This document shows positions 2,180 through 31,530 of a stretch of DNA of 34,976 nt, one piece after another. A program made the position numbers and the translations under genes. Position 1 is the stretch's first letter. Every line of letters starts with the position of its first letter. Below the pieces are notes generated by a model. That model saw only the letters and a program-made list of their open reading frames with translations, ran no database searches and was not told the DNA's origin. The stretch is from Ruminiclostridium sp. (GTDB taxonomy: Bacteria > Bacillota > Clostridia > Oscillospirales > Ruminococcaceae), in the NCBI GenBank assembly GCA_017635095.1, contig JAGBMA010000110.1:1-34976 (forward strand), given 5' to 3'.

Positions 2180-2989
2180 TTAAAACGGATAAACATCATC
2201 GTCCGGATTGTTTCCGGTTCCGCCCACTGTTGCCATTTCAGGTTTTTTGACGCTCATTATAAACGTTGCAGTATCGCCGCCCATAAACGCATCCGCGATA
2301 TCAGATGATACATCTGTTCCGGTATCCGAAGAATCCGAAGAGTCCTCCTCTTCCAGACCGTCGTTGAGGTCATATATGGAGAACCCGGTTGCTGAGAAAC
2401 CGACATCGCCGTCCTTCTTGGTATATTCCTCGATCTCCGAGATACCGATAGCATACATCGACTTGTCTTTCAGCAGCTTTGACGCTTTTGCTGCAAGTCT
2501 CTCGGTATCGTTATCCCAGAATTTGAGAGATACCCAGTCCATAGACTTTTCCTCGCCGTTGAATGTCCTGAGTCCGATAGAACACGAGAAGTAGGTTTTA
2601 CCGGTAGTGGTTTTCTTCAGAGGATCTTCGAAAATATATACTTTTCCGAAGTAGATACGGCTTTCCTTTTCCTTTCCGCTCTTGTCCTTGTACTTTGTAC
2701 GGACAATGTTGTTCGAGAAATTGAAGTCATACGCCTGAAGCACGCCGTCCTTCTGTCTTGCACACTGGAGTATGAGCTTCTTGCCGTTGAAATCGAAGCT
2801 CCTCATTCTCTGGACATTCTTACGGAACTTGTTGTCCTTGAAAACAATAGGTTCCGTATCGATAACATAGTCCTTCTTTTCGCCGTCCCAGCGAGAGTAA
2901 GTCACATCACCGGAGAAATACTCCTCCTGATCCTGCAGGTTGCTGAGAATACCCACGATTATGAGTGCGTTGCCCAATACTTTTATCAT
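2180..2989 (-). CDS. SSB-like OB-fold protein with acidic C-terminal tip
   Basis: A 269-aa protein resembling a single-stranded DNA-binding protein. The central part (about residues 115-200) reads like an SSB OB-fold: a TYFSCSIGL strand, then a DWVSLKFWD strand, then a helix running into a KLLKDKSMYAIG strand. The sequence ends in an acidic Ser/Asp-rich tail closing with DDDVYPF, very like the DDDIPF-type tip through which SSBs recruit partner proteins. It is longer than a typical 110-180 aa SSB and has an extra N-terminal region. Start chosen at 2989, where AAGGAAGG sits about 7 nt upstream; ATG two codons earlier abuts the site. It is last in a three-gene operon led by the 77-aa gene. The fold is read by eye and the SSB call is an inference. 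Confidence 0.6.
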   Translation of the reverse strand: MIKVLGNALIIVGILSNLQDQEEYFSGDVTYSRWDGEKKDYVIDTEPIVFKDNKFRKNVQRMRSFDFNGKKLILQCARQKDGVLQAYDFNFSNNIVRTKYKDKSGKEKESRIYFGKVYIFEDPLKKTTTGKTYFSCSIGLRTFNGEEKSMDWVSLKFWDNDTERLAAKASKLLKDKSMYAIGISEIEEYTKKDGDVGFSATGFSIYDLNDGLEEEDSSDSSDTGTDVSSDIADAFMGGDTATFIMSVKKPEMATVGGTGNNPDDDVYPF

Positions 2990-3006
2990 ATTCATCCTTC
3001 CTTTCC

Positions 3007-4242
3007 TTATGCTGTTAAGCCTAACATCGTTGTTCCGCATATTTCTTCAAAGTCCACAAAGAAGACATCTTTGGTACAGTTTGCAAACGCTTCTCTGGCA
3101 TAGTCAGACATTCCCATTATCCTACCGGGTACTTTGGAGATAAAGTCGGCTATGTCAAATGCGTTATAGCTCTTTGCCGGAGAAAACTCCTGTGATGCTG
3201 CCTCGGCAAACTGTTCCGAATACTTTCTGCCGATTATTTTTGCAAGTCCGGAGCGGTTCATGACCTCTTTAATGGTCTCCTTGACATCATACACATCTAT
3301 TGCCAGCAGTTCAAGTATTCTCACGGGGAGCTTTGAGTACTCGGTAAAGATATTGCTGCGGACATCATCGATATACTTGTCAATATCGACATCTCCACGG
3401 TGTATCCTCGATACCTTCCCGACATAGAACGGAAGACCTTCCTCAGTGCGCTGTGTACCGCGTACCGTAAGTGAGGAATCGCCCACATCACTTGTCGTTA
3501 TGCACAGCCCCGGCATCACGGTCGTATCCAGACCGTACACCTTCCTGAACTCTTCAGCAATAGACGGAAACTCAAAATACATCCTTGTGACGAAATTATC
3601 CGCTGTAATTCCGCAGAATTCTGACTTTTCGCCTTCAAGCAGCTCGTCCTCGGCTGCTGTCACGATATCCTTGATAGCATTCTGCGGGATAGGCGTATAT
3701 GTACCGCCGAGAACAGCAAATACTTTCTTCATGCCCTCATCGCTGCACCTCATGACTACGCTGCACTTGACCCTCCTCTGTGCCAGCTTTTCGGTTATGA
3801 AACTGTCACGGAGTATCGAATATTTGTCAGTAAGCCCGGAACCGCCGAGATTGCATCTTGAGCATACAGTGCCAAGCGTCTCGGAGCTGCAGGAGTACAG
3901 CGTTCCACCGATGTTCAGCAGATAGCCGTTTCTTTTAAGCTCCGTATAAAACGCCTCATTGCCGCCAAGCCAACTATCCACGAACTCCTGCTTGTCCATT
4001 TCGGTAAAGCCGGAAGGCATTCCGATGTTACGCGTCCTTTTCGGAGAACTCGGGTCGGGCGGATCGCATATTGCGAAAGAAACCTTTCCACCGCTCTCGC
4101 CCATATAGCTTACCAGCTTTATCTCGTTGCTGCGAAGCTCTGTAACCGCGACCGACGAGCTGAGCTCATCGAGTATCCTGTACGCTTCGTCAATGTCTTT
4201 TGTTGTCCAGATTTTGCTATCCAGAAGATCAGACTGTTTCAT
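3007..4242 (-). CDS. Unknown 411-aa protein (possibly DUF932-like)
   Basis: I do not firmly recognise this protein. It has no signal peptide or membrane segment, so it is probably cytoplasmic. It contains several Cys (a CSRC pair near residue 130, and others at CSVVMRC), and a middle stretch (KCSVVMRCSDEGMKKVFAVL, then TPIPQ and a helix) recalls the DUF932 plasmid/phage family often found near SSBs, but I cannot confirm that. Start at 4242 has GGAGG 6 nt upstream. It lies between the 77-aa gene (gap about 30 bp) and the SSB-like gene (gap 17 bp), so all three are probably one transcript read from the shared motif at 4542-4559. The neighbours suggest a DNA-handling role. Confidence 0.7.
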   Translation of the reverse strand: MKQSDLLDSKIWTTKDIDEAYRILDELSSSVAVTELRSNEIKLVSYMGESGGKVSFAICDPPDPSSPKRTRNIGMPSGFTEMDKQEFVDSWLGGNEAFYTELKRNGYLLNIGGTLYSCSSETLGTVCSRCNLGGSGLTDKYSILRDSFITEKLAQRRVKCSVVMRCSDEGMKKVFAVLGGTYTPIPQNAIKDIVTAAEDELLEGEKSEFCGITADNFVTRMYFEFPSIAEEFRKVYGLDTTVMPGLCITTSDVGDSSLTVRGTQRTEEGLPFYVGKVSRIHRGDVDIDKYIDDVRSNIFTEYSKLPVRILELLAIDVYDVKETIKEVMNRSGLAKIIGRKYSEQFAEAASQEFSPAKSYNAFDIADFISKVPGRIMGMSDYAREAFANCTKDVFFVDFEEICGTTMLGLTA

Positions 4243-4272
4243 TATAAACCTCCAATTCAACTCAGATTTTCC

Positions 4273-4506
4273 TTATGCTGCGCTGCCGCGAGCTATCATA
4301 ATGCACTCATTGAGCAGGCTGATAGCGTATGCGCCGCGTTCATCACGCTTTTCTTCCTCGATATACATCACAAACTCCTGCGGAGATATTCTTTCGTTCA
4401 CATAGTCCGAGATCTTCGCGTACAGAGACTTCTTATCTATACGGTTTGAGGCTCTTGTGAGCGAGGAATAGACTTCCGCAAGCTGCTTTGCTTCAAATCT
4501 TCTCAC
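4273..4506 (-). CDS. Small hypothetical protein, 77 aa, GTG start
   Basis: A charged, helical-looking 77-aa protein of unknown function without membrane segments. It starts with GTG at 4506, supported by AAAGGAG about 6 nt upstream. It is the first gene of the leftward operon that continues with the 411-aa unknown and the SSB-like protein. The shared promoter-like motif ends 35 nt before its start codon, the main reason to regard it as a real gene and to place it in the same regulon as the pilus and helicases. Confidence 0.65.
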   Translation of the reverse strand: MRRFEAKQLAEVYSSLTRASNRIDKKSLYAKISDYVNERISPQEFVMYIEEEKRDERGAYAISLLNECIMIARGSAA

Positions 4507-4541
4507 GATATCACTCCTTTCATCGAATATAGTTACACTCC

Positions 4542-4559
4542 TATTATGATTACGACAAG
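4542..4559 (-). promoter_or_regulatory. Shared regulon motif, copy A
   Basis: On the minus strand this reads CTTGTCGTAATCATAATA, matching the other four copies but with one extra base after CTTG, as in copy E. It ends 35 nt before the GTG of the 77-aa gene, a distance compatible with a promoter whose CATAAT serves as the -10 element. Confidence 0.7.
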
Positions 4560-4582
4560 GTTTCGATTAGAGAGAACCCTCG

Positions 4583-5518
4583 CTACTGATTACGATTATT
4601 TCCTGCGAGCTTTCCGAAATCCCTGTTAAAAGCATACATGGCATTGCGTTCCTCGTTATTGTCCTTGAGTGTCTTGCTGTTCACCTCGTTGAAAAGCGTA
4701 CTGATAAGATATTTTTCGTAAATGCGTATATCATCAGCCGTTTTCATTCGTTCAACAGCGTTTTCAAGGCATTCTCTATCGACCTTCAGCATTGTTGAGC
4801 GTATTACCTCGCGGGGGACCCTCTGCCCGCAGATCAGTTCATCGGGTTTATCCGAACATACCGCCCTTGTGATCATAGAAACGATATCGTCAAGCTCCCG
4901 AACAGTCATATACCCCTTAGAGCCTTCGATCCAGTCTATGTAGTCGGTATATTCTATGTTATCTCTGATAACAGCGATATAGGCATTGAATCGCTGTAAA
5001 TATCCATCGGTCTGTCCGTCCTGCTCGGATTGATTGATAGATTTTTTTTCAGTTCGTTTTTGATTTTTATTTATTTGATTATTATTTATTATATTATCGT
5101 CGCGGTTTTCTTGATTATCAGATTGTATATTTTGCTTCCCTTGATCTTCAATACCTTGATTCAGGTTTTCTGAATCAAGGTTTTCTGCATCTTGATTGCC
5201 GGGATCTTGTGAAGTCGTTCCTTCTGTCATAGGCTCATCACTGAAAACATATTCCCAGTCTGCTATTTTTCCGTTCTCATATATCCGCCGTCTAATAAGA
5301 TAGCCCGCTTTTTCAAGATTTTTAAGTGCTGTGGAGATTTTGGTAAGACCGTCCGGCAATATATGCATAAGTCCCCTTATAGAAAAATCCCAGCTTTCGG
5401 GCAATGAAAGCATGGTTATCAACAGCCCGCGCTCGGTCGCTCCCAGATTTGTGTCCCGTATCATTGCGTTATGAATTATCGTGTAATCCCTTTTGACCTC
5501 TTTTTTCAATCTTGGCAT
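4583..5518 (-). CDS. wHTH replication-type protein with DUF6017-like C-terminus
   Basis: A 311-aa protein. The N-terminal part (residues 1-100) is the winged-helix fold of replication initiator/replisome-organiser proteins on Firmicutes plasmids and integrative elements: RDYTIIHNAMIRD, GATERGLLITMLSLPESWDFS, then a helix-turn-helix in which LTKISTALKNLEKAGYLIRR is the recognition part. A 65-residue Asn/Gln/Asp-rich linker follows, then a C-terminal domain (IRDNIEYTDYID, LDDIVSMITRAVCS, the VPREVIRS helix, YLISTLFNE) that resembles DUF6017. Start chosen at 5518 because GGAGTG lies 7 nt upstream; the longer frame to 5677 runs through the preceding hairpin. Genes like this usually mark a mobile element's replication or control module. 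It follows the pilus operon after a hairpin, with a possible degenerate copy of the shared motif at about 5529-5555. Confidence 0.75.
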   Translation of the reverse strand: MPRLKKEVKRDYTIIHNAMIRDTNLGATERGLLITMLSLPESWDFSIRGLMHILPDGLTKISTALKNLEKAGYLIRRRIYENGKIADWEYVFSDEPMTEGTTSQDPGNQDAENLDSENLNQGIEDQGKQNIQSDNQENRDDNIINNNQINKNQKRTEKKSINQSEQDGQTDGYLQRFNAYIAVIRDNIEYTDYIDWIEGSKGYMTVRELDDIVSMITRAVCSDKPDELICGQRVPREVIRSTMLKVDRECLENAVERMKTADDIRIYEKYLISTLFNEVNSKTLKDNNEERNAMYAFNRDFGKLAGNNRNQ

Positions 5519-5552
5519 AGCAAACACTCCTATTATCACTGTACACTTCAAC

Positions 5553-5581
5553 AAGCCCGGAAACAAGCCGTTCCCGGGCTT
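5553..5581 (-). terminator. Intercistronic hairpin at the end of the pilus operon
   Basis: Arms 5553-5563 and 5571-5581 form an 11-bp GC-rich stem (AAGCCCGGGAA with TTTCCGGGCTT on the minus strand, one G-U pair) with a 7-nt loop, 5 nt after the stop of the last pilus gene. No T-run follows, so it may act as an attenuator or mRNA 3' stabiliser rather than a complete terminator. Confidence 0.5.
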
Positions 5582-5586
5582 TATTC

Positions 5587-6825
5587 CTATTGAGTGGCTT
5601 TCACATAATACAATCTGCACCCTGAAATATTTACTGATTTTCGTCCCGAGCCTGTTGTGCCATTCGTGTATGCACACACAGGCGCTGTACCGCTGAACCC
5701 TGCGCTGCTGTCGGAGCCATCCGTTACCGTTGGTCTTATGAAGTAGTAAGTTCCGTCCGAACCGACCGCAAAGGTAATACAGCCCTTGTTCGCCATTTCC
5801 ACAGCCTCACTTACAGCGCCAAGAGTTCCGAATCTTGATGTGTCATTTATATTTATCCTTCCGAGTTCAACTCCTTTGTGACCTTTATTCCAGTCATAAT
5901 AAGTGCTTCCGTTCGATGAAGCCCCCGTGTTAAGGGTATATCTGGGCAGTTCACAGCCCATAGCGACAGAAATATCCCATAACAGCGTATCTGAAGCCGT
6001 GAGAGAGACCGCATTACCTCGTCCGCCGTAAACATAATCGTCCGCAAACTGATGTATGTCATATTGTGCGTATTCGGATTCCACATATCTTGCAGTCTGA
6101 AGCTCACCGAGACCGAATTGATCCAGCACAGCGTCATACAAAGCCGCAGAGCGATTGTCAGCTATATTGTCGAGCTTTTGCCCTTTATATGACTCCCACA
6201 GGCTTGTCCCGGGAACATACTGATAAGCATTAAGCAAAGTTGTTCCGGTGTTGCTTGTGAGCGCGGAGATAGGGATACGCGGATCGTTAGGGTACATATC
6301 CGAAAATCTTACGGTATCCTCAAGCGGTGTCTCCGTTCCGATTATATATACTGTCCCGAGACCGTCAACACGATATGTGGGTCGGGGCAGCAGATTAAAG
6401 ATATTCCTACCCTCAACTCTCCCGACAGCAGTAAATAAACGTTGGTTATAGCTTAACTGCGGCAGACCGTTGCAGGGACCGAGAGCGTTGCTGTTATAGG
6501 TATAGTTTGTAACAAGACCGGGCATGACCTGCTTGTTGGCATCATATATCCTGTCCGCCATCTCTTTGGCATCTCTGCCGGAAAGCTCGGTCTTATCCTT
6601 ATAGCTGTTTGTAACGATGTCTATATCATAGGAATTGATAATGCCGGTATCCGCTGCCACCGAAGCTCCTTCGATAATAGCGTCGGTCTTTGTCTGCACT
6701 GCCGCGGCGCAGACATACTTCCCGCCGATCTCAACGACAACGCAGAAAGCGGTCAATATAATGAGCCATACAGACATCATCATAAGCGTCATTCCGCTTC
6801 CTTCGCGCCAATTTATCCGTTTCAT
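5587..6825 (-). CDS. Large pilus-associated pseudopilin-like protein (TadE/TadG position)
   Basis: A 412-aa protein with a short basic N-terminus (KRINWREG), a Gly-Ser-Gly, and one hydrophobic segment at about residues 12-35, followed by a long extracytoplasmic domain. This is the layout of TadE/TadF/TadG-type pseudopilins, but the C-terminal domain is much larger than a TadE and I do not recognise it. It is rich in Asn, Gly, Thr and Tyr, with Cys near the C-terminus (SGCRLYY). Start chosen at 6825 with GGGGTGAGAAG just upstream; it begins 4 nt after the tadE stop. As last gene of the tad operon it could be a minor pilin or tip adhesin. That role is inferred from position and topology. Confidence 0.75.
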   Translation of the reverse strand: MKRINWREGSGMTLMMMSVWLIILTAFCVVVEIGGKYVCAAAVQTKTDAIIEGASVAADTGIINSYDIDIVTNSYKDKTELSGRDAKEMADRIYDANKQVMPGLVTNYTYNSNALGPCNGLPQLSYNQRLFTAVGRVEGRNIFNLLPRPTYRVDGLGTVYIIGTETPLEDTVRFSDMYPNDPRIPISALTSNTGTTLLNAYQYVPGTSLWESYKGQKLDNIADNRSAALYDAVLDQFGLGELQTARYVESEYAQYDIHQFADDYVYGGRGNAVSLTASDTLLWDISVAMGCELPRYTLNTGASSNGSTYYDWNKGHKGVELGRININDTSRFGTLGAVSEAVEMANKGCITFAVGSDGTYYFIRPTVTDGSDSSAGFSGTAPVCAYTNGTTGSGRKSVNISGCRLYYVKATQ

Positions 6826-6829
6826 CTTC

Positions 6830-7333
6830 TCACCCCGCTCGTATAACATCGTTGCCGGAGTCAACAGGGGTCTCTACCATCATAACAATTGAAGCCTGCA
6901 CAGTACGAGGAGTGGTGCCTATAAAGCTGACTGTACGCATTGTGACAGTATATTCGGCAAGTACACCCTTCGTCCAAGCGGAATCGGACTCTACAAGCCT
7001 CAGCTCACCGTGCCATTGTTTCGCAGAAAGGTCGGAAGAAGCAGACTGTCTGTACCCTCCGACTGCCATTGTCTGCTCGACAACAGCGTTTGCGGCTCCC
7101 TGTGCGGCTGCTATTCTGTGATCCGTGTCAGCCCCTATATCCTGTGTCGTCACTACAGCGGCTCGCCCGCCTACATAAGCGCAGTATTCCGCTATCTGTC
7201 CGGCTCTTATGTACGCAAACACATTCAGCGAAACAAGTATCAGGTACAGTACGAAGGGACACATCACACAAAATGACAGTATTTCAGCGGAACCGCGCCT
7301 GTTTTTCAACCTCTTCAGTATTTTTTTCAACAC
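6830..7333 (-). CDS. tadE: TadE-like pseudopilin, GTG start
   Basis: A 167-aa protein with a basic start (KKILKRLKNRRGSAEILSFCV) leading into a single hydrophobic helix at about residues 18-42. The RRGSAE boundary is the type of short, Gly-preceded cleavage site processed by prepilin peptidases, with Glu near position +5, typical of TadE/TadF minor pseudopilins that help assemble Flp pili. The start is the GTG at 7333, with GGAGG 7 nt upstream; the alternative TTG next codon is less likely. It begins 14 nt after the prepilin peptidase stop and lies in the same leftward operon. Confidence 0.8.
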   Translation of the reverse strand: MLKKILKRLKNRRGSAEILSFCVMCPFVLYLILVSLNVFAYIRAGQIAEYCAYVGGRAAVVTTQDIGADTDHRIAAAQGAANAVVEQTMAVGGYRQSASSDLSAKQWHGELRLVESDSAWTKGVLAEYTVTMRTVSFIGTTPRTVQASIVMMVETPVDSGNDVIRAG

Positions 7334-7346
7334 ACCTTCGCCTCCT

Positions 7347-7826
7347 TTACTGGATAAACCTGTCTATCACGAAATAGGCAAGATATGAGGCATATCCCAC
7401 CAGCATATATGGCGCAAAAGGTACTTTTTCGCCTTCCGCAGCTTTATCGGCATCTTTGAGCCTTCGAATATCCACCTTGTACCTGCCTTTTATTACTTTT
7501 ACTATAAGCAGAGCGGAAGAGGCTATAAAGAGCGTTATAAGCGTAGGCAGAACGCCTTGTAATGCCGTCAATGCCATAACCAGCTTCAGGTCTCCGAGTC
7601 CCAGACAGCCTGTTGCTCCGACAAAGAACAGAGCCGTTATAGCGAGTGTTCTGACAATACCTTCCTGCCAGTCCATAAGATAGATCATCACCAGACCGGC
7701 TATCAGAGAGCCAAAAGTAAGAATGTTTGGTATCTTTCGTGTATGTATATCATAAATGCAAGCCGTAATAAATGACATCAGGGTAAATCCCATTACGGAT
7801 GCTTCCAAAATCATCTGTTCAGTCAT
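7347..7826 (-). CDS. cpaA: Prepilin peptidase, A24A (TadV/CpaA)
   Basis: A 159-aa polytopic membrane aspartic protease that cleaves Flp-type prepilins. Both catalytic motifs are visible: YDIHTRKIPN (first Asp, near residue 26) and GLGDLKLVM (the GxGD motif). Hydrophobic segments alternate through the length, and the short size is normal for TadV/CpaA enzymes, which lack the methylase domain of PilD. Start chosen at 7826 with AAGGAG 5 nt upstream; an earlier in-frame ATG (7850) overlaps the hairpin after the pilin gene. It lies directly downstream of its probable main substrate, the Flp pilin. Confidence 0.9.
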   Translation of the reverse strand: MTEQMILEASVMGFTLMSFITACIYDIHTRKIPNILTFGSLIAGLVMIYLMDWQEGIVRTLAITALFFVGATGCLGLGDLKLVMALTALQGVLPTLITLFIASSALLIVKVIKGRYKVDIRRLKDADKAAEGEKVPFAPYMLVGYASYLAYFVIDRFIQ

Positions 7827-7846
7827 AGTTTCTCCTTGAATTTTGT

Positions 7847-7877
7847 GCAACGGGCATTGGTCGTCAATGCCCGCTGC
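7847..7877 (-). terminator. Hairpin after the Flp pilin gene
   Basis: A 13-bp stem (arms 7847-7859 and 7865-7877, one G-U pair, 5-nt loop) begins 10 nt past the pilin stop. No T-run follows on the minus strand. In pilin operons such a hairpin usually protects the abundant pilin mRNA or causes partial termination, lowering expression of the peptidase and pseudopilins downstream. Confidence 0.55.
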
Positions 7878-7886
7878 GCATGTTTC

Positions 7887-8135
7887 TTAGCCTTCGCCGC
7901 CGCCAGCTTCTCCGCCGCCGGAACCGCCGCTGCCGTTCGCATTCTGGAGACCCGAAACGAGGTTATCCTGAAGCATCTGGTCAGTTGAGTTGAGGGAGCC
8001 CTGCATAGTGTTCATGATCGCTATTGCAGCTGTTACAAGGATAGCCGCAATCGCGACTACTATCGCCCACTCGATCAGTTCTGCGCCCTCCTCATCACGG
8101 AAGAAGCGCTTTGCGTAGTTCTTGAATTTAACCAT
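7887..8135 (-). CDS. flp: Flp-type major pilin
   Basis: An 82-aa prepilin. The leader MVKFKNYAKRFFRDEEG ends in Gly17, the expected cleavage point, and the mature form begins AELIEWAIVVAIAAILVTAAIAI, with Glu at +5 as in class-IVb/Flp pilins, followed by one hydrophobic helix. The C-terminus is a flexible Gly/Ser tail (residues 67-82), longer and more glycine-rich than usual, perhaps an exposed spacer on the filament surface. It lies between tadC and the peptidase gene; the order ATPase-tadB-tadC-flp is that of Gram-positive tad loci. AAAGGA is 10 nt before the ATG. Confidence 0.92.
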   Translation of the reverse strand: MVKFKNYAKRFFRDEEGAELIEWAIVVAIAAILVTAAIAIMNTMQGSLNSTDQMLQDNLVSGLQNANGSGGSGGGEAGGGEG

Positions 8136-8198
8136 GGCTAATTCATCCTTTCTGAAAAAATTTGTTTTATATGTATGACACAGGAGTTAAGGCGTTCA

Positions 8199-9074: not shown

Positions 9075-9075
9075 A

Positions 9076-23054: not shown

Positions 23055-23534
23055 TCAAAAAGCCTTGAGCGCGGTAAAATCACTCTTGATAATTCCGGCG
23101 TACTTTTCGGCCTCTTCCTTTGTTATTGTTTCATCGGACATAAGCCTTTCCTTATATCCAACAAGATGCTCCCGTGTCATATCCAGCAGCGATAAAAGGT
23201 TTTCCCGTATTTTTTCACTGTCAGAAGCAGCTCCTATCCCCTTGATATCCTCAACGGCTTCGTCAATTGAAGCGATAGTGACACCCAATGACTCAATTTC
23301 CGTTCCTGTATCATATTCCGGGTCGGATATGTTTCGGGTCAAGGCGGCATGGGATACCAGCATATTCAGTATTCCGGATGTCTTCTTGGCTAAAAAAGTC
23401 CGGTATTCAAGCTCCGACATCCGTATCTCCGTGTAATAGCCGTCATCGGGATCAACGGTGGAGCCGACCTGCATACAGCCAGATGAACACAGCAGAGCCG
23501 CTGCAAGCAGTACGGTATATGGTTTTAAAGACAT
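23055..23534 (-). CDS. Small predicted lipoprotein, 159 aa
   Basis: An N-terminal signal (MSLKPYTVLLAAALL) is followed by CSSGC, a plausible lipobox with the lipidated Cys at about residue 20. The rest is helical and charged, without further membrane segments, so the mature protein is probably held on the outer face of the membrane. Start chosen at 23534, where GGAGG lies 7 nt upstream. It is the second gene of the operon leading to the giant ATPase and may be an envelope component of the same machine. I know no family. Confidence 0.7.
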   Translation of the reverse strand: MSLKPYTVLLAAALLCSSGCMQVGSTVDPDDGYYTEIRMSELEYRTFLAKKTSGILNMLVSHAALTRNISDPEYDTGTEIESLGVTIASIDEAVEDIKGIGAASDSEKIRENLLSLLDMTREHLVGYKERLMSDETITKEEAEKYAGIIKSDFTALKAF

Positions 23535-23619
23535 AATTGTCCCTCCGTCCATTATTGATTTCTAAAACGGAAAAGGCGGTAATTTCCGCCTTTCCGTACA
23601 TTCCGAATGAAAGACAAAG

Positions 23620-24312: not shown

Positions 24313-24346
24313 TCGGTCCACCTCCATTCATCATAACGCTTATATC

Positions 24347-24366
24347 TATATTATGATGACGGCAAG
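24347..24366 (-). promoter_or_regulatory. Shared regulon motif, copy E (ATPase operon)
   Basis: CTTGCCGTCATCATAATATA on the minus strand, the most divergent copy: one extra base after CTTG and one substitution (GTCATC for GTAATC). It ends 34 nt before the start codon of the CHC2 gene, inside the short gap after the TSP3-protein gene. Confidence 0.65.
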
Positions 24367-24381
24367 CGCCTTTTAAGTGTT

Positions 24382-26001
24382 TCAAAATGCAGAGAAGTCG
24401 AACGGGGCAGAAGTGGTGTCTGACTCAACGAGTTCCGTCGTTGAATCAGGAGCTTCTGTTTCAGTTGCTGCTGTCGTTTCTTCCGAAGGCGTATCGGTCG
24501 TATATGAAACATCAGAAGTGTCGGTGGAATCAGTTTCCTCTGGTGTAGCAGTAGTATCGGCATTTGATGTCATTTCTTCATAAGAAGTTACCACTGTTGT
24601 TTCGCTCTCGTTTGTGCTCTCCACGGGAGCAGTTGTTGTCACCGATGTTTCCGGCTTGTTTTCATTGTCTGTTCTCGCCGCTTCCTCATTTGAAGGCTGT
24701 TCGCTGCTCGCGGGTACATAAGGAGTACCGTCATATCCACCTGTATCATCAAACAGGAATACGATATTTGACCTGTTGGATGTCCTATAACCCGCACACC
24801 CGAAGGTAAACCACTGCTTCAGCTCCACAACGCCGTCAACATTCAGTATCCTGCCGCATTTTTCGTTCACAGACAGAATACCGAGCGGATTTAAGGTCTG
24901 AAGGTCGGCTGCCAGCAGGTCTCCGCCGGATGTATATCCATATATTATAATAAGTGTCTCGCCGTAGTTCTCACGGTACAGAGAAGCAGCAACCGTTTTC
25001 CCATTATTTATTGCAGAATACACCTTCGCTATATCTTCAAGAGATGTGCTGTTCATGGAAAAGCGCTCCGGTTCAAGCTCATAAGGCGGTACGGTAATTT
25101 CCAGAACGGTATCCTGACGGTTTACACCGACCTTGTCACAGTCCATAACCGGATAGCACTTGAACAGCCCGTAATTCCCATAATCAGGCAATATGAAGTC
25201 CAGAATTTGCCCAAAGGTATCGTTATCGAGATAAGAGATGTCCCCGAAAGCTTCAAGCTTGTAATACTTCTTCATATTCTCTGTGAAAAATACAACTCTC
25301 CCGCCACCGCTAATATGATAGGCATTGCTGTCCGGATTGTACGGAAGCTCCTTATGTATGCCGTCCTTATACAGATATGCGTGTCCGTTATCGGGAAACT
25401 GCGCCCAGCCGCTGAAATTGGAGAATTCATACCCATCGAGCGTCTTTACTACTCCGCCGTAAGTCTTGCTGTACAGATTATCCGCCCATAATACGACATT
25501 TCCCACCTTATACGGCGTTCCCGTGGCATTTCCGTTGGATTCGTCTATTGACGATACATACGACTGGAGCTTGTTGTTCCATTGTATAGGGCTTGTGTTG
25601 AGCGAGTAGATCTCGATATAATCTGTAAGACCGTCGTCATCTGTGTCCTGTCTGTACGGATCTGTGCCGTACATAGTCTCCAGTGCATTTGAAAGCCCGT
25701 CACCGTCAAAATCTTCGTCCGGGTATGTGTTGTAGTACGCCTGCCCGGTTCTTATCATCTCTTTATCTACGGTTGCGAGTGCCGGGTAAGACAGCGCAGG
25801 AACAGGGGTAGAGATCATTGCCGGTATGTATACCGTTCCCAGAATGACGGAAGCGGCTCCCAAAGCTATAAGGGGACCTTTTTTCAAGGGTTTCTTAGCC
25901 TTTATAGGGCGTCCGCTCTCGTCAAAACCCAAAATCTCCGGCTTTTCGTTTCTGCGGGCGGCTCTGCTGTTCTTCATTTTCTTCTTGACCAAATTTGACA
26001 T
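24382..26001 (-). CDS. Membrane-anchored TSP3/EF-hand-like repeat surface protein
   Basis: A 539-aa protein. A basic cytoplasmic N-terminus (residues 1-41) precedes one membrane segment (about 42-63), so the remainder is outside. Residues 95-130 carry two thrombospondin type-3-like calcium loops (DEDFDGDGLSNALETMYGTD and DTDDDGLTDYIEI), as in many bacterial surface proteins. A large unrecognised globular domain (about 150-440) and a Thr/Ser/Glu-rich tail (about 445-539) complete it. There is no LPXTG. AAGGAAC lies about 9 nt before the ATG. It follows the micro-ORF pair under motif copy C and precedes the ATPase operon, so it may be the surface or wall-spanning part of the system, perhaps a recognition protein. 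Function is inferred from layout. Confidence 0.72.
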   Translation of the reverse strand: MSNLVKKKMKNSRAARRNEKPEILGFDESGRPIKAKKPLKKGPLIALGAASVILGTVYIPAMISTPVPALSYPALATVDKEMIRTGQAYYNTYPDEDFDGDGLSNALETMYGTDPYRQDTDDDGLTDYIEIYSLNTSPIQWNNKLQSYVSSIDESNGNATGTPYKVGNVVLWADNLYSKTYGGVVKTLDGYEFSNFSGWAQFPDNGHAYLYKDGIHKELPYNPDSNAYHISGGGRVVFFTENMKKYYKLEAFGDISYLDNDTFGQILDFILPDYGNYGLFKCYPVMDCDKVGVNRQDTVLEITVPPYELEPERFSMNSTSLEDIAKVYSAINNGKTVAASLYRENYGETLIIIYGYTSGGDLLAADLQTLNPLGILSVNEKCGRILNVDGVVELKQWFTFGCAGYRTSNRSNIVFLFDDTGGYDGTPYVPASSEQPSNEEAARTDNENKPETSVTTTAPVESTNESETTVVTSYEEMTSNADTTATPEETDSTDTSDVSYTTDTPSEETTAATETEAPDSTTELVESDTTSAPFDFSAF

Positions 26002-26057
26002 CGTTAATAGTTCCTTTCTTCGGGTTCCTTCAAAAATAGTTTAAACTGTTTGCTTGT

Positions 26058-26254
26058 TCATAACCTTGGCGGCAAAGTATCGAAATCTTTTTTTCTGCAG
26101 CCATATAGTTTTCCGAGAGAGAATGCAGCCGTATTTATCATTTCTTCGGTAAAACCCTTCTCCTTCAGCTCGGTAAGATAGCAATTAGCTTCAGATCCAG
26201 TTGCCCATACAGTAATGAATTTGCTTGGTTTCTCAGACTCCTATGCTTCGACAT
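26058..26254 (-). pseudogene. Small gene apparently broken by a one-base frameshift near its start
   Basis: A strong AAAAAGGAGG followed by an ATG at 26254 opens a frame that leaves the expected track within five codons and stops after 29 codons. In the next frame a much more protein-like sequence continues to 26058 (SKFITVWATGSEANCYLTEL at first, ending FDTLPPRL). The span is 197 nt, one base short of 66 codons, so one inserted base near 26240 would restore a 65-aa protein. This may be a mutation, a sequencing error or a programmed frameshift. Protein family unknown. Confidence 0.5.
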
Positions 26255-26369
26255 AGTATACCTCCTTTTTCTTCATTGACCCGGAGTTCATGTGTAATGA
26301 ACCATTGCCGTTATTGCCTTTGTGCAACCATACAAGACATATCCTGATGGCTGCGATGTTGGATGACAT
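26241..26369 (-). CDS. Micro-ORF of 42 aa under motif copy C
   Basis: An ATG at 26369 with AAAGGAGG 9 nt upstream opens a 42-codon frame that ends in TAG, overlapping the next ribosome binding site and ATG (26254) by 14 nt. The peptide begins MSSNIAAIRICLVWLHKGNN and ends KKKEVYYVEA. The shared motif lies 49 nt before the start. It could be a leader peptide that couples translation of the following genes, or a functional microprotein. It is too short to assign a family. Confidence 0.5.
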   Translation of the reverse strand: MSSNIAAIRICLVWLHKGNNGNGSLHMNSGSMKKKEVYYVEA

Positions 26370-26417
26370 AGTTATTGACCTCCTTTAAGAAAATAGGTTT
26401 GAAAAAACTCTTCTATG

Positions 26418-26436
26418 TATATTATGATTACGCAAG
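26418..26436 (-). promoter_or_regulatory. Shared regulon motif, copy C
   Basis: CTTGCGTAATCATAATATA on the minus strand, identical to copies B and D. It precedes the micro-ORF, the frameshifted small gene and the TSP3 protein. The upstream 25 bp resemble those of copy B. Confidence 0.75.
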
Positions 26437-26486
26437 ATGACTTTGGAGAGCAATTGTGAACAGTTTCAAAATAAGAAGATAAGCTC

Positions 26487-26524
26487 TTGACAATATAACA
26501 ATATTTGTGTATAATATTGTTATA
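26487..26524 (+). promoter_or_regulatory. Toxin-antitoxin promoter with overlapping operator palindrome
   Basis: TTGACA (26487-26492), a 17-bp spacer and TATAAT (26510-26515) form a consensus sigma-A promoter for the rightward toxin-antitoxin pair. A perfect 12-bp inverted repeat (TATAACAATATT at 26494-26505, AATATTGTTATA at 26513-26524, 7-bp gap) overlaps the spacer and -10 element. It fits an operator for antitoxin autorepression. Confidence 0.85.
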
Positions 26525-26546
26525 GATTTTAAGAGGAGGGTTAAAT

Positions 26547-26810
26547 ATGCCGAATATAAGATCAAGCGCAGACCTCAGAAACGGTTACAATGAGATATCC
26601 ACTTTCTGCCATACCTATAATGAACCTGTATTTATCACAAAGAATGGCAAGGGCGATCTTGCTGTAATGAGTATTGAAGCTTATGAAGCACTTGTGGGAA
26701 GATTTGAGCTGTACGACTTGATAAAAGACGGACTGTCCGATGTCGAAAACGGGAACACCAGACCATTTGCCGAGGCAATGGCAAGTATCAGGGAGCGCCG
26801 CCGGAAATGA
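26547..26810 (+). CDS. Phd/YefM-family antitoxin
   Basis: An 87-aa protein with the Phd/YefM DNA-binding fold: MPNIRSSADLRNGYNEISTF, then EPVFITKNGKGDLAVMSIEAYEAL, the hallmark segment of this family. The C-terminal third, ending in a basic RERRRK, should wrap and neutralise the toxin. GAGGAGG is 7 nt before the ATG, and the stop overlaps the toxin start as ATGA. The preceding palindrome over the promoter is its likely operator. It is the only rightward unit inside the leftward block. Confidence 0.88.
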   Translation: MPNIRSSADLRNGYNEISTFCHTYNEPVFITKNGKGDLAVMSIEAYEALVGRFELYDLIKDGLSDVENGNTRPFAEAMASIRERRRK

Positions 26811-27142
26811 CATACAGCGTTCACATCACAAATAAAGGTGAGCAGGACATCATTGAAGCGGCAGATTATATTGAATTCACGCTGCTTAATCCCAGTGCCG
26901 CTGACAGTCTCCTTGATGCCGCCGAGAATGAGATAGGAAAGCTTTCCTTTATGCCGGAGAAGTATCCGATAATCGACGACCCGGTATTGAAGAAATGGGA
27001 AATTAGGTTTATCCCGGTCAAGAACTATCTGGCGTTTTATGTCATAGATGAAGATACCCACACAGTACACATAATCAGATTTCTCCACGGAAAGAGAAAT
27101 TGGCAAAAAATACTTTGTTATGAGTCGTTTACAACAGAATAA
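26807..27142 (+). CDS. RelE/ParE-family toxin
   Basis: A 111-aa toxin of the RelE/ParE superfamily: MTYSVHITNKGEQDIIEAADYIEF at the N-terminus, KLSFMPEKYPII in the middle, and the C-terminal strand IRFIPVKNYLAFYVIDEDTHTVHIIRFLHGKRNW. The HIIRFLHGKRNW ending and the P-x-x-YP segment fit ParE-type members (gyrase poisons) somewhat better than RelE-type ribonucleases, but the target cannot be read from sequence alone. Translation is coupled to the antitoxin through ATGA. Confidence 0.85.
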   Translation: MTYSVHITNKGEQDIIEAADYIEFTLLNPSAADSLLDAAENEIGKLSFMPEKYPIIDDPVLKKWEIRFIPVKNYLAFYVIDEDTHTVHIIRFLHGKRNWQKILCYESFTTE

Positions 27143-27146
27143 AAAG

Positions 27147-27179
27147 AAGAACCACTGTATTTATCATACGGTGGTTCTT
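27147..27179. terminator. Bidirectional terminator between toxin and recD2
   Basis: A 13-bp stem with one G-U pair (arms 27147-27159 and 27167-27179, 7-nt loop) lies between the convergent toxin and RecD2 genes. The minus-strand side is followed by CTTTTTATT, a good leftward terminator; rightward it is followed by GCGTTTTAA. Confidence 0.75.
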
Positions 27180-27193
27180 GCGTTTTAATGGTG

Positions 27194-29335
27194 TTAATCC
27201 TGTATCATCCAGCGCTTCAGCAAAGAGTTCCTGTTTATAGCAGAGACCTTTCGTATAGCCATGTCAACAGCCTTAGCTTCGCCGAACATGATCAGCCTTT
27301 CCTTGGCACGGCTTATTGCCGTGTAAAGCAAATTCTTCTGGAGCATTATATAATGCTCGTTGGTAAAGCAGGTTATGACGGTTTTGACTTCGGAACCCTG
27401 AGCCTTATGTATTGTAATAACATAAGACAGCGTGAGATTTTTGGCGTCAGCAGCAGTGTATTCCACAGTACGCCCGTCATCAAAGGTCACTGTCATATAG
27501 GCGTCGGATATTTCCGTTACCGAGCCGCAGTCACCGTTATAGACATCCCTCTCGTCATCGTTCTTTGTTTGCATCACGCGGTCATTGAGCCTGAATTCGA
27601 GATTTTTTGTGGCAGGAAAGGTTTTTGACCCGTCTTCCGGGTTTATTCTGTCCCGTATTACCTGATTAAGCGTGTTGGCCGCTGTATTGCTTCGGGTCTT
27701 CATAGGGACGATGACCTGTACATCCTTTACAGATGAAGCGGCTACTGCGTTTATGAAAGCGTCAACGACCGCCTGTCCGGTATCTTCCTTCGGCATTTCA
27801 CGGAAAATGAAGTCAGGACCGAGAGAGAAAAACTTCAGACCCCTGCCTTTCTTGATAGCCTCCGCGTTTGTAGCAATAGCGCCGCCAAATCTGTGTGTAA
27901 ACAACAGCGTTACTGTCGGTACTAACGGCGAATCGACAAGTTCCCTGAACAGACAGCCCGGTCCGATAGGCGGAAGCTGATCCACATCGCCTATCATAAC
28001 GACCCACACCTTTGCTTTCGGATTGCAGTCTATTGCCTTGAACATCTTGCTTGCAAGGAAAATGTCGATCATTGACGACTCATCAATAACAAACAGATAG
28101 TCCTCAAAGTCATCAAGTCTAAGACAATTATCCCCAAAGCCGCACATACGGTGAATGGTCGTTGCTTCAAGCCCGGTGGATTCTTTCATACGCCTTGACG
28201 CTTTTCCCGTAGGAGCCGCAAGGTATATATTGTCTTTACGCCCTCCACAAGCAATAAAAGCTGATATTATAGCTTTTATAACGGTTGTTTTTCCTGTACC
28301 GGGTCCGCCGGTCACAACGGAGATACAGTTTTTCAGCGCGTTGTGTACAGCGTTCTTCTGCTGTATCTCGTAGGTCATGCCAGTTTTGAGTTCAGCCTCT
28401 CGCAGCGCCTCATCTACTTTCTTTTCGTCATAGAGCCTGTAGTGATTTCTAAGACTTTTCGCAACAAACCGAGCGCAGAGCTTTTCACAGTTTAGCAGAT
28501 TCGTAAGATACAGCTTGTCGTTATCCACAAGCACCGCGTCTCCCGCCTGTATCATCTGCGCGATCTGCTCCGCTATGACATCATCTGATACCGTGATACC
28601 GTCAACAAGCTCATTGACCTTGCGGCGAACACTGTTCACATTGTAATAACAATGTCCTTCTTCGCAAATAGTTTCCATAGCGTAGTATATTGCCGCTTTG
28701 ACCCGCATAGGGTCGTTTGCGTCGATACCCGATTTCTTTGCCAGCTCATCAGCCTTCTTGAACCCAAATCCGTCTATCTCGATGATACGGTAAGGATTTC
28801 GCTGTATAGTTTCAACAGCTCTGTCACCGTATTTCCGGTAGATCGTATTGATCTGGTTTCTTGTTGCCTCTCCGCCAAAGTATGAGATAAGCTCCAGTAT
28901 GGTTGACGACTGGTTATAGCACTCATGTATGGTTCTTGCCTTATCAAGCGTTATTCCGGATACTTCCGCCAGTCTTTCCCAAGCCGTACTGATGATCTTT
29001 TCTGTATCCTCACCGAAGGTTTTTACTATTTTTTCGGCAAGTGCCGGTCCTACACCTTTTATAAAGCCAGACATCAGTACGCTCTTTATATCAACATTTC
29101 CGTCCGTATATATTCTGGCGCTTGTTGCCTTGAGCTGATATCCGTATTTCGTATTGACATATTCGCCCTCCATAGAAACTCTGTCTCCGACTGCTACACC
29201 GAAAAGCTTTGCAAAAAATCTCACCTTTGAGTGCATTCCGTCTGGGAAAGCGGTCGGCTTCTCCAGCGCCACAATGCCGGCAGCTGCGTCATCGCTTGAA
29301 AAAAACAGCTTTTCAATTGTGCCTTCAACCTGCAT
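27194..29335 (-). CDS. recD2: RecD2-type superfamily 1B DNA helicase (first)
   Basis: A 713-aa 5'-3' helicase of the RecD2 (ExoV alpha-like) family. After an N-terminal OB-like region and helix-hairpin-helix repeats (about residues 80-200: GVGPALAEKIVKTFG, VSGITLDKARTI), the SF1 motor begins at Walker A VTGGPGTGKTTVIKA near 337, Walker B is FVIDESSMID, and the C-terminal HKAQGSEVKTVI and YTAISRAKERL blocks are motifs V and VI. All helicase motifs look intact. GGAGGAG precedes the ATG, which overlaps the upstream RecD2-like gene by 11 nt. The pair is read from motif copy D. In this setting it may process DNA entering or leaving through the transfer machine. Confidence 0.92.
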   Translation of the reverse strand: MQVEGTIEKLFFSSDDAAAGIVALEKPTAFPDGMHSKVRFFAKLFGVAVGDRVSMEGEYVNTKYGYQLKATSARIYTDGNVDIKSVLMSGFIKGVGPALAEKIVKTFGEDTEKIISTAWERLAEVSGITLDKARTIHECYNQSSTILELISYFGGEATRNQINTIYRKYGDRAVETIQRNPYRIIEIDGFGFKKADELAKKSGIDANDPMRVKAAIYYAMETICEEGHCYYNVNSVRRKVNELVDGITVSDDVIAEQIAQMIQAGDAVLVDNDKLYLTNLLNCEKLCARFVAKSLRNHYRLYDEKKVDEALREAELKTGMTYEIQQKNAVHNALKNCISVVTGGPGTGKTTVIKAIISAFIACGGRKDNIYLAAPTGKASRRMKESTGLEATTIHRMCGFGDNCLRLDDFEDYLFVIDESSMIDIFLASKMFKAIDCNPKAKVWVVMIGDVDQLPPIGPGCLFRELVDSPLVPTVTLLFTHRFGGAIATNAEAIKKGRGLKFFSLGPDFIFREMPKEDTGQAVVDAFINAVAASSVKDVQVIVPMKTRSNTAANTLNQVIRDRINPEDGSKTFPATKNLEFRLNDRVMQTKNDDERDVYNGDCGSVTEISDAYMTVTFDDGRTVEYTAADAKNLTLSYVITIHKAQGSEVKTVITCFTNEHYIMLQKNLLYTAISRAKERLIMFGEAKAVDMAIRKVSAINRNSLLKRWMIQD

Positions 29336-31478
29336 TTTTATTCAACTCCTCCTTTATTCGTCTGGCAAGAGTAGTTCTTCTCTTACCCTCATCACTGTTA
29401 CTTACCGCAAGCTCAATACTTCCTTGTGAGCCGATAAGTATTACTGACTGCTTTGCACGCGTTACGGCGGTATATAGGATATTTCGCTTTAACATACCGC
29501 TTTTGGGCAGGGATATAATGACATTCTGAAACTCCGAGCCCTGCGCACGATGAACGGTTATAGCATACGCCAGCTGCAGCTCATCCAGATTATCTCTCGG
29601 TAGATGTATTATCGTTCCGTTCATATCTATAGTGATCTCATTACCAAGTATCTCCAAGATAATGCCGAGATCGCCGTTGGAATAGCCCTTATTGGGTCTG
29701 TTCTTCGTGAAGATAACCTTATCTCCGGTCAGAAAACGATTTTCACCATAAACAATGCTATTCCGTGGATTTGGATTAAGTATAGCCTGCATTCTCTGAT
29801 TTATCTCGATAGTGCCGCCCTTCCCCTTATTCATAGGACATAGGATCTGCAATCTGAACGGATCCTGCTTACAATGAAGCTTTGAGGTTATGGTACATAC
29901 GGTTTCCGTTATATGGAGCTGCTCCGCCTTGATTATCTTAAAGTCGTCCGCCTCAACAAGCCTTGAATTTCCTGTATTTATCGCATTTGCGTTCCTGATT
30001 ATCGAAGAACCTTCATTCTGTCTGAATACCTGCTTCAGCTGCATTACCGGAAGGCATCCGCTTGAGATACATTCTCCGAAGAAGTCGCCTGCACCTACCG
30101 ATTTTATCTGATCCATATCGCCGGAAATCAAAATGAATGCGCCGCTTTTCACAGCAGACAGCAGTATGCTTGCAAGGCTCTGGTCGATCATCGAACCCTC
30201 ATCAACTATTATAAGATTGGCAGGAATGGGATCGGACATATCCTTGTGCTTTGATTCTCCATTATCCCCGGGAATGTAATCAAGAAGCCGATGTATGGTA
30301 GTCGCTTCCATACCGGTAGATTCCGCAAGTCTCCTTGCCGCTCTTCCGGAGGGAGCACACAGCTTTATCTCGCCGTAAGGAACCATTTGCTTGAATGCAG
30401 CTATTATGACACGCATTACTGTCGTTTTACCCGTACCCGGACCACCGGTAATGATACCGATGCCCCTGCATTTCAGTATTCCGATAGCATTTTTCTGCTC
30501 ATCGGAAAGACGCACTCCGCATATCCTTTCGGCAATCTCTCCGACCCGCGGAGTGTATGGCAGCGGTTTAGCCGTATTCCGAAGCCGCATAAGCTGCTTT
30601 GCTATGTTTACCTCATCGTTATACGCTCTGCTCAGATATACTCTGATATCATCAGTGCCGTCTGTAACAAGGTATGGGTTCGACCTTACCGATGTCTTAT
30701 ACAGTGACGGCGGCAGAATAGTATCCGATATCACCATCAGCTTTTCCTTTGAGCGACTGTAAAGCTCGTCATAGGGCAGGAATATATCTCCGTCCTTTTC
30801 CGCGGCAGTCAAAACTTGCTTTAACAAAGAGATTATCCTGTTGCGGTTGTATAAGCTGCCGCCGTTTTCTATGGCAATAGCGTCACAGGTCTCGAATGAT
30901 ACCCCGTAGTTCTCCAGCTCATAGGGTTCGCTGCATATCTTCTTTATTGCACCTCTGCCGTACTCGGAGACGAGCCTTGACAGAGCATCGTAACCGATAC
31001 CACGCTTTATACTGTAATCAAGGATCTTTTTCCAGTACAGAGAGTTCGCCACAGCATTTACTATTGCGGCAGCCTGCTTCTGAGAAACAGGTATAACAGA
31101 GCATACCTTTATAATAGAGTCCGCAGAAGTTATCCACCTGTAAATATCGGTTCCGTATTCGATGATCAGACTTCCGGCATCTTCTACCGAAAGTCCTATA
31201 TACTCACTTGACAGGAACCTGATCGCCGCCGTATCCGTCTTATATTCCGATAAGATCTTCTTTACCTCCAGATACTTGCCGCGGTCGCTGCTCTTGACAA
31301 CACATTCCATTGAAATATATTCAGAAACATATATGGGAGGAGTAATCCCTTTACAGGTCACATTCCCATAGATATTTATGAAATCCAGCGTGCTGCCTAT
31401 TGGTTTCAGCGAAAATATCGTATATCCGGTCTTCTGGTCTTTTATCAGCGTTTTCTCATAATAACCTGATATTAACAC
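29325..31478 (-). CDS. RecD2-type superfamily 1B DNA helicase (second, paralogous), GTG start
   Basis: A 717-aa RecD2-like helicase, about the same length as the neighbour but clearly diverged. Motifs: Walker A ITGGPGTGKTTVMRV near residue 343, Walker B LIIVDEGSMIDQ, GDMDQIKSVGAGDFFGE, and the C-terminal HRAQGSEFQNVI and YTAVTRAKQSV blocks, so an active motor is expected. The N-terminal region (about 1-200) is less conserved. The start is the GTG at 31478, with GGAGGAG 5 nt upstream; motif copy D lies 34 nt upstream. It may unwind a different substrate or work as a partner of the downstream RecD2. Confidence 0.9.
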   Translation of the reverse strand: MLISGYYEKTLIKDQKTGYTIFSLKPIGSTLDFINIYGNVTCKGITPPIYVSEYISMECVVKSSDRGKYLEVKKILSEYKTDTAAIRFLSSEYIGLSVEDAGSLIIEYGTDIYRWITSADSIIKVCSVIPVSQKQAAAIVNAVANSLYWKKILDYSIKRGIGYDALSRLVSEYGRGAIKKICSEPYELENYGVSFETCDAIAIENGGSLYNRNRIISLLKQVLTAAEKDGDIFLPYDELYSRSKEKLMVISDTILPPSLYKTSVRSNPYLVTDGTDDIRVYLSRAYNDEVNIAKQLMRLRNTAKPLPYTPRVGEIAERICGVRLSDEQKNAIGILKCRGIGIITGGPGTGKTTVMRVIIAAFKQMVPYGEIKLCAPSGRAARRLAESTGMEATTIHRLLDYIPGDNGESKHKDMSDPIPANLIIVDEGSMIDQSLASILLSAVKSGAFILISGDMDQIKSVGAGDFFGECISSGCLPVMQLKQVFRQNEGSSIIRNANAINTGNSRLVEADDFKIIKAEQLHITETVCTITSKLHCKQDPFRLQILCPMNKGKGGTIEINQRMQAILNPNPRNSIVYGENRFLTGDKVIFTKNRPNKGYSNGDLGIILEILGNEITIDMNGTIIHLPRDNLDELQLAYAITVHRAQGSEFQNVIISLPKSGMLKRNILYTAVTRAKQSVILIGSQGSIELAVSNSDEGKRRTTLARRIKEELNKNAG

Positions 31479-31511
31479 CTATACTCCTCCCTTCATCAAA
31501 TCTTTCATACT

Positions 31512-31530
31512 TATATTATGATTACGCAAG
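31512..31530 (-). promoter_or_regulatory. Shared regulon motif, copy D (helicase pair)
   Basis: CTTGCGTAATCATAATATA on the minus strand, identical to copies B and C, ends 34 nt before the GTG of the RecD2-like gene. It faces away from the divergent sigma-factor gene. Confidence 0.75.

Follow-up and report, generated by a model that had tools for sequence, protein, structure and literature searches.

The 34,976-bp contig JAGBMA010000110.1 of Ruminiclostridium sp., referred to here as the window, was found to carry a block of genes for a Tad pilus, a giant serine-rich ATPase, a candidate nuclease (the RR protein) and SSB proteins which, as judged by its content and order, is the backbone conserved in a group of very large plasmids of Bacillota. 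We read the block, tentatively, as a Tad-pilus-assisted apparatus for plasmid transfer (probability about 0.45). An annotation made previously from the sequence alone (the first-pass annotation) had suggested a Tad-pilus-based system for DNA transfer or uptake; the megaplasmid-backbone nature of the block is added here. Window proteins were searched against Pfam, NCBIfam and PHROGs, and relatives were sought by tblastn and reciprocal best hits (RBH).

The window is the entire open contig G000:C34 of a 3.83 Mb genome in 236 contigs. According to the open reading frame (ORF) listing, the block is a co-directional run of minus-strand ORFs (2180..31478). Intergenic gaps in this run measure -34 to +86 bp (some starts having been chosen by eye), the sole exception being a gap of 1,192 bp that parts the TSP3 gene from the two RecD2 genes. 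The block reaches past position 31530, where the first-pass annotation had ended it, to a divergent gene for a sigma-70-type factor (about 31819..32778, plus strand, start by eye; Sigma70_r2 9.5e-8), which is a reciprocal best hit on the three relatives pRUMAL01, pB6464 and G885:C2.

Gene order on closed megaplasmids

Nearly the whole block, with its order kept, is present on pRUMAL01 of Ruminococcus albus 7, a closed circular megaplasmid of 420,706 bp. The core order SSB, RR, ATPase, Tad is kept on pB6464 of Alkaliphilus sp. B6464 (closed circle, 435,827 bp), and the core order from SSB through the Tad genes on contig G885:C2 (139 kb) of a Lachnospiraceae metagenome-assembled genome (MAG). 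Among 30 predicted window ORFs, reciprocal best hits were obtained for 19 on pRUMAL01, 10 on pB6464 and 17 on G885:C2. The order common to pRUMAL01 and the window runs RecD2a, RecD2b, TSP3, CHC2, lipoprotein, SSB, membrane protein, RR, and continues with two small membrane proteins, ATPase, CpaB, TadZ, TadA, TadB, TadC, A24 and TadE; on pRUMAL01 the RR gene is RUMAL_RS16745 and the ATPase gene RUMAL_RS16760. Because so many of the ORFs have their counterpart on pRUMAL01, in an order kept through the block, the arrangement goes beyond chance. The two plasmid backbones share the core and its order, and identities to the window range between 67%, for the C-terminus of the pRUMAL01 ATPase, and about 20-30%, for the proteins that diverge most. 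The window differs from pRUMAL01 in that a toxin-antitoxin pair is inserted in antisense between the TSP3 and RecD2b genes and in not being closed, and pRUMAL01 has an additional dnaE inserted between the CHC2 and lipoprotein genes. As the window is an open contig and the relatives are closed circles, we infer its plasmid nature from them, and it is very probably a piece of such a megaplasmid itself. A protein annotated as ParM/StbA on both plasmids is common to pRUMAL01, pB6464, G885:C2 and a further related contig, G061:C3, as are other maintenance genes.

A tblastn search of 72,556 plasmid records with the ATPase motor returned nine, of which pRUMAL01 (66.8%) and pB6464 (47.4%) were strong matches and the other seven reached 22-25%. 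RR was found on four of these records, namely pRUMAL01, pB6464, Pontibacillus ALD_SL1 (898 kb) and Priestia pFDU301A (1.08 Mb), and on all four it directly precedes the Tad locus or, on the two clostridial plasmids, the ATPase-Tad run. For comparison, TadA-like genes (E<=1e-20) occur on 1,695 of the 72,556 records. The order on the Pontibacillus and Priestia plasmids is SSB, DUF1064, RR, CpaB-like, TadZ, CpaF, TadB, TadC, A24, TadE; in Pontibacillus a DUF87 ATPase with an insert is encoded on the opposite strand, about 12 kb away from RR. The first-pass annotation had held that separate occurrence of pilus and ATPase genes in relatives would count against it; in the clostridial relatives, ATPase, RR, SSB and Tad genes were found together. 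Pairwise identities across five taxa gave Spearman coefficients of 0.77 for ATPase and TadA and 0.81 for ATPase and SSB, the pairs not being independent.

Other pilus-type and ATPase genes were seen on the closed plasmids. Two further loci for ATPases of type II secretion or type IV pilus type lie at about 213-234 kb of pB6464, whose Tad locus is at 250 kb, and one of them has RcpC/CpaB and SSB genes nearby. On pRUMAL01, a three-gene set at 206.6-212.8 kb consists of an ATP-binding protein flanked by two hypothetical proteins.

Tad pilus genes

A complete Tad pilus had been claimed for the window, and this was borne out, all components being identified by family match, relatives, position or N-terminus. 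CpaB, TadZ, TadA, TadB, TadC and the A24 peptidase were matched by Pfam or NCBIfam; Flp fell below the cut-off, TadE was recognized through its relatives, and the TadG-like protein by position and a pilin-like start. All lie on the minus strand. The TadA/CpaF pilus ATPase (9981..11648; T2SSE 4.3e-52) is present in a single copy and is followed by the platform proteins TadB (9076..9984; T2SSF 3e-16) and TadC (8199..9083; T2SSF 1.7e-10). The MinD-like ATPase of TadZ/CpaE type (11645..13201) matched AAA_31 at 8e-8 and, below cut-off, TIGR03815 at 4.6e-10, and CpaB/RcpC (13214..13888) matched TIGR03177 at 2.3e-10, also below cut-off; position and RBH back both assignments. The Flp pilin (7887..8135; Flp_Fap 8.3e-5, below cut-off) and the A24 prepilin peptidase TadV/CpaA (7347..7850; PF01478 5.6e-12) precede a TadE-like minor pilin (6830..7333; RBH on pRUMAL01 and G885:C2) and a TadG-like surface pseudopilin (5587..6825), placed by position and by a pilin-like N-terminus seen by eye, with 88.8% identity on G061:C3. 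By these assignments the window genes qualify as those of a Tad/Flp (type IVc) pilus.

The giant serine-rich ATPase

Upstream of the Tad genes lies a gene for a giant serine-rich ATPase of HerA/DUF87 type (13975..19191, minus strand; 1,738 aa). The protein belongs to NF033849 (ser_rich_anae_1), scoring 1499.9 bits against a curated cut-off of 650, and comprises an N domain, an insert of about 909 aa rich in Ser, Gly and Thr, and a C-terminal motor. Ser makes up 33% of the insert (residues 258-1166), Gly 14% and Thr 14%; there are 2 Pro, and Cys is absent. Up to a distance of 12 residues, Ser recurs at even spacings and is scarce at odd spacings, and Gly has a period of 4. The Ser pattern is also present in three clostridial relatives, whose inserts measure 386-649 residues, with the Gly pattern weaker in pRUMAL01, and is weaker in the Pontibacillus homologue, which has a 191-residue insert rich in Ser, Gly, Thr and Gln. 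The two-residue alternation of Ser suggests that the insert is beta structure rather than a loose linker.

The kinship of the motor was examined with hhalign, in single comparisons with shallow, unequal profiles. A profile of five clostridial motor sequences gave 99.5% with the Pontibacillus homologue, 99.2% with DUF87 proteins of Streptomyces and Rhodococcus plasmids (474 columns), 92.0% with Enterococcus HerA, 88.4% with VirD4 proteins and 10.8% with a single Pontibacillus VirB4, with control values of 5.8% for TadA and 4.0% for RecD2. When the Pontibacillus homologue was added to the profile, the values were DUF87 99.4, HerA 96.5, VirD4 87.7, VirB4 8.2 and RecD2 9.4. The motor thus appears nearest to HerA/DUF87, then to VirD4, and least to VirB4. 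The first-pass annotation had seen a pumping ATPase and named HerA/VirB4-type ATPases as drivers of conjugation; of the two kinships HerA was retained, and a VirB4 identity is disfavoured. The window ATPase had no Pfam match to DUF87, a family which the Pontibacillus homologue matches at 2.8e-7. The Streptomyces and Rhodococcus proteins were set aside as distant kin in which the serine-rich insert is absent by eye, and the Enterococcus match as a separate system, with its HerA adjoining a SIR2-domain protein. A predicted structure of the motor (mean predicted local distance difference test score 35.9, from an alignment of 3 sequences) was unusable. NF033849 had previously been described just as a 'serine-rich protein'; the motor kinship and the plasmid setting are newly derived here.

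The RR protein

The gene between the membrane protein genes encodes RR (19922..21403, minus strand), a candidate PD-(D/E)XK-like nuclease. In an alignment of six sequences (alignment A2), RR has an N-terminal coiled coil and a winged-helix-like part, both recognized by eye, and D376, E389, E391 and K406 are invariant in all six. This D/E/E/K arrangement is what we take to be the layout of PD-(D/E)XK nucleases. A PDB profile search with RR matched 8gy8_A at E=0.0036, and the alignment covers the D/E/E/K motif.

RR had originally been called Replic_Relax-like, and this was not upheld. The window protein had no Pfam match to Replic_Relax (PF13814), and two of the six aligned members matched below cut-off (best E 0.0072). 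A separate Replic_Relax search gave matches below cut-off on pB6464 (2.1e-4) and pRUMAL01 (0.0076); in the control for that search, 10 of 14 control genomes also matched at a loose limit of 0.5. With hhalign, a two-sequence profile reached 0.44%, and the assignment was regarded as unsupported.

Conjugation and competence genes

The first-pass annotation had seen neither a MOB relaxase nor VirD4, and neither MOBP (PF03432) nor VirD4 (PF02534) was found on the window contig. The lack of VirD4 extends to the whole of both closed plasmids, pRUMAL01 and pB6464, and MOBP was likewise not found on pB6464. On pRUMAL01 the sole MOBP match, 260 aa long, lies close to a recombinase gene and, measured round the circle, at least some 140 kb away from the block; the mobC gene of this plasmid is also located elsewhere. 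The PF01076 relaxase was not found in five records, the window genome lying outside that search. As had also been stated, ComEC, DprA and ComFA were not found among the window proteins scanned, the rest of the genome not having been searched.

Distribution and near-identical copies

Of 119 relatives, 4 carry the ATPase motor, own genome included. Eight of 391 class genomes matched, with a strong match in its own genome and at most 32.6 bits in the others; the 13 matches among 396 family genomes comprised its own genome, a cut-off piece in G882 (97 bits) and 11 weak ones (<=38.6 bits). RR was detected in 3 of 398 phylum genomes, strongly in its own genome alone. A scan of genome contigs yielded 5 loci out of 49 pattern matches. 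MAG bins often lose plasmids, so the occurrence rates of the ATPase and RR may be low estimates. A chromosomal pilus island was rejected on the occurrence of the ATPase in 4 of the 119 relatives and on the order kept by the two closed plasmids. A phage or phage-plasmid was also rejected, as neither phages nor three scans of IMG/VR yielded a relative (the search did not extend to capsid and terminase genes).

A near-identical copy is present on contig G042:C100, with 99.11% identity to the window over 30,382 aligned columns and 3 differences across 8.0-34.8 kb. Between the two genomes, which are classed as different species, the regions containing rpoB share 84.35% identity across 4,230 columns. 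The copies would be explained either by recent cross-species spread of the plasmid or by a misbinned contig. Differences per kb in window kb 4-7 numbered 37, 131, 87 and 10, with just 3 elsewhere. Within 4390-7500 they jump over the TadG and DUF6017 genes, where the G042 contig ends; in these otherwise near-identical copies, it looks as if this segment had been recombined or exchanged.

Other genes of the block

Single-stranded DNA and replication functions are represented by several genes on the minus strand. Two SSB-like proteins had been proposed, of which the one at 22214..23083 is well founded (Pfam SSB 9.7e-8; RBH on pRUMAL01, pB6464 and G885:C2), while that at about 2180..2989 (start chosen by eye) is a weak SSB-like/OB-fold candidate (PRK06293, E=0.0068) with a 76% identical neighbour on G061:C3. 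Pfam confirmed the two RecD2 helicases, b at 27194..29335 (HHH_RecD2 9.9e-30) and a at 29325..31478 (1.1e-10), as well as the CHC2, TSP3 and DUF6017 proteins. The CHC2 zinc-finger (primase-like) protein (23620..24327; 8e-12; RBH on pRUMAL01 only) had no primase core matched by Pfam. The membrane-anchored TSP3 surface protein (24382..26001; TSP3_bac 1.8e-6) has RBH on pRUMAL01 and, in another place, on G885:C2. The HTH_36 and DUF6017 protein (4583..5677; true start maybe an ATG near 5518, by eye) matched a DnaD-like loader in PHROGs at 2.6e-16 and is likely a plasmid replication initiator or helicase loader.

Around RR are genes for a 180-aa membrane protein (19198..19740; 46% on pRUMAL01 and 40% on G885:C2, position kept), a 67-aa small membrane protein (19747..19950; tblastn matches in the equivalent place on L016 and L018) and a 291-aa single-pass membrane protein (21387..22262; RBH on pRUMAL01 and G885:C2), followed by a small lipoprotein (23055..23552; lipobox by eye; RBH on pRUMAL01 and G885:C2). 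A VirB8-like nature of the 291-aa protein was dropped because its outer part looks helical by eye in the alignment. Beyond TadG lie a small conserved protein of 77 aa (4273..4506; 83% on G061:C3) and a conserved megaplasmid protein of about 411 aa (about 3007..4242), which matched no Pfam family and has RBH on pRUMAL01, pB6464 and G885:C2. All of these are again on the minus strand.

Within what the first-pass annotation had called one coregulated block, the RecD2 pair is parted from the remaining genes by a Phd/YefM antitoxin and ParE toxin (26547..27142, plus strand; E 7.4e-9 and 3.1e-12), which lie antisense to the block and are likely a plasmid addiction module. A perfect sigma-70 promoter stands upstream of the pair and a terminator-like hairpin downstream; over 22000-34976, consensus promoters were not in excess (27 versus 25.0 in shuffles). 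An AAA-ATPase_like/PDDEXK_9 protein adjoins the block at 292..2016 on the minus strand, with 80% identity in the equivalent place on G061:C3. At the contig end (33587..34803), hexapeptide acetyltransferase and aldo/keto reductase genes form a stretch shared with G042:C100 which may be cargo or flank.

Proposed function and alternatives

From gene content and order, the ATPase kinship, the VirD4 searches and the near-identical copies, every functional step is proposed as follows. The Tad pilus would bind and pull in a partner cell, and RR, with its DNA-binding part, would cut or process the plasmid. SSB and, less tightly linked, CHC2 and RecD2 would handle the opened strand and aid establishment. 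The serine-rich HerA-type ATPase and the adjoining small membrane proteins would form a pump driving DNA out, the role of VirD4 elsewhere, and the sigma factor would turn the gene set on. A bolder version, conjugation free of a type IV secretion system (T4SS), in which a Tad pilus and HerA-type pump operate with a PD-(D/E)XK-like nuclease replacing the relaxase and the 191- to 909-residue Ser/Gly insert forms a beta rod or conduit across the cell wall, is unlikely.

Several observations weigh against transfer, which is deduced from anatomy and distribution with no transfer observed. The RecD2 helicases, which the first-pass annotation had treated as part of the unit, are separable from it: on pB6464 some 66 kb lie between RecD2 and the Tad genes, and on G885:C2 RecD2 is found about 13 kb upstream of the core. 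The TSP3 and sigma genes do not adjoin the core on either replicon (sigma at 320 kb on pB6464, TSP3 beyond the Tad genes on G885:C2), and neither gave a reciprocal hit for CHC2. The Priestia megaplasmid has RR, SSB and Tad genes, with the serine-rich ATPase not detectable, and the Pontibacillus and Priestia megaplasmids also bear a VirB4-type cluster, so that Tad on them need not be the DNA conduit. Pairwise identities gave no clear sign that RR is inherited together with its neighbours, the Spearman coefficients being 0.25 for RR and ATPase and -0.02 for RR and TadB. The tie of RR to Replic_Relax is weak, and RR is not assigned there; the relaxase search covered PF03432 and PF01076, other MOB families not being searched. 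The VirB4 model PF12846 had no match on pRUMAL01 or pB6464, but it also missed a T4SS-like set in Rhodococcus. In the hhalign test, the VirB4 side consisted of one sequence, and the TadA control rose to as much as 38.6 (16 columns) once Pontibacillus joined the motor profile. Finally, SSB, CHC2, RecD2 and DnaE fit plasmid replication equally well, and the near-identical copies could be misbinned contigs.

The main rival, which we regard as possible though doubtful, is that the Tad pilus serves colonisation or adhesion, and that a very large plasmid is replicated, segregated or repaired with the help of RR, SSB, CHC2, RecD2 and the HerA-type ATPase. HerA-type ATPases are not transfer-specific, and DnaE, ParM/StbA and topoisomerases of types I and II are all encoded by the closed plasmids themselves; that pB6464 keeps RecD2 and the sigma gene, yet not beside Tad, also agrees with such a division of labour, and the available passages of PMC5696575 describe adhesion and colonisation roles of Tad pili in other bacteria. 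However, the ATPase, RR, SSB, small membrane proteins and lipoprotein are set tight against the Tad genes in one order on the window, pRUMAL01 and G885:C2, RR and SSB adjoin Tad in two Bacilli as well, and replication has no need of membrane proteins or a lipoprotein. Quite unlikely, in our view, is transfer by a conventional route, through an unrecognised plasmid T4SS or a host integrative and conjugative element acting in trans, with Tad only aiding mating-pair contact. The Pontibacillus and Priestia megaplasmids have their VirB4-type cluster within about 25-45 kb of Tad; VirD4 gave a full match far off and a weak match near the VirB4 cluster in Priestia, and a weak match in Pontibacillus. 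Other contigs of the window genome hold 9 MOBP and 5 VirD4 matches, and the Cutibacterium acnes linear plasmids, in the portion of PMC5696575 available, unite tad with FtsK-, VirB4- and TcpC-like genes. Against this route, none of eight Pontibacillus cluster proteins, VirB4 included, had a tblastn match (E<=0.1) on pRUMAL01, pB6464, the window or four related contigs, whereas five of the eight matched Priestia. In Pontibacillus (NZ_CP062975.1, 351-385 kb) the VirB4-type conjugation cluster is followed by a large flagellar gene cluster.

DNA uptake, the other function originally suggested, gained no positive evidence. A Tad locus is required for transformation in Micrococcus luteus, according to the passages available of PMC6668835 and PMC5696575, and that locus links a Tad pilus with DNA movement in a monoderm, as is proposed for the window. 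The M. luteus system differs in being one of uptake, and no HerA pump or nuclease is named in those passages. The present unit lies on plasmids and is not fixed in chromosomes, includes a HerA/VirD4-like pump, and has no ComEC, DprA or ComFA family among the scanned window proteins, so that Tad-run uptake is very unlikely.

Relation to known systems and significance

The nearest case in the literature is that of the C. acnes linear plasmids, where a Tad locus also adjoins genes for DNA-transfer ATPases; compared by description, those have the FtsK-, VirB4- and TcpC-like genes and the window the serine-rich HerA pump, RR and SSB. In the parts of PMC5696575 available, the authors left the link between pili and conjugation open, and a transferable C. 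acnes linear plasmid is reported in PMC9119108. Among the matches listed in full-text literature searches, the unit was described in no title or opening of an abstract (preprints and most subscription papers were outside its scope).

To our knowledge, it is not known how plasmids of at least 400 kb that lack standard conjugation genes move among the Clostridia of gut and rumen. Such megaplasmids can carry traits such as dockerin proteins, whose genes are placed on pRUMAL01 and pRUMAL02 in the portion of PMC4081043 available. The proposal gives the NF033849 family its first functional hypothesis, and as two named strains, Alkaliphilus sp. B6464 and R. albus 7, carry the unit on plasmids, the question of whether a Tad pilus may assist plasmid transfer is directly testable.

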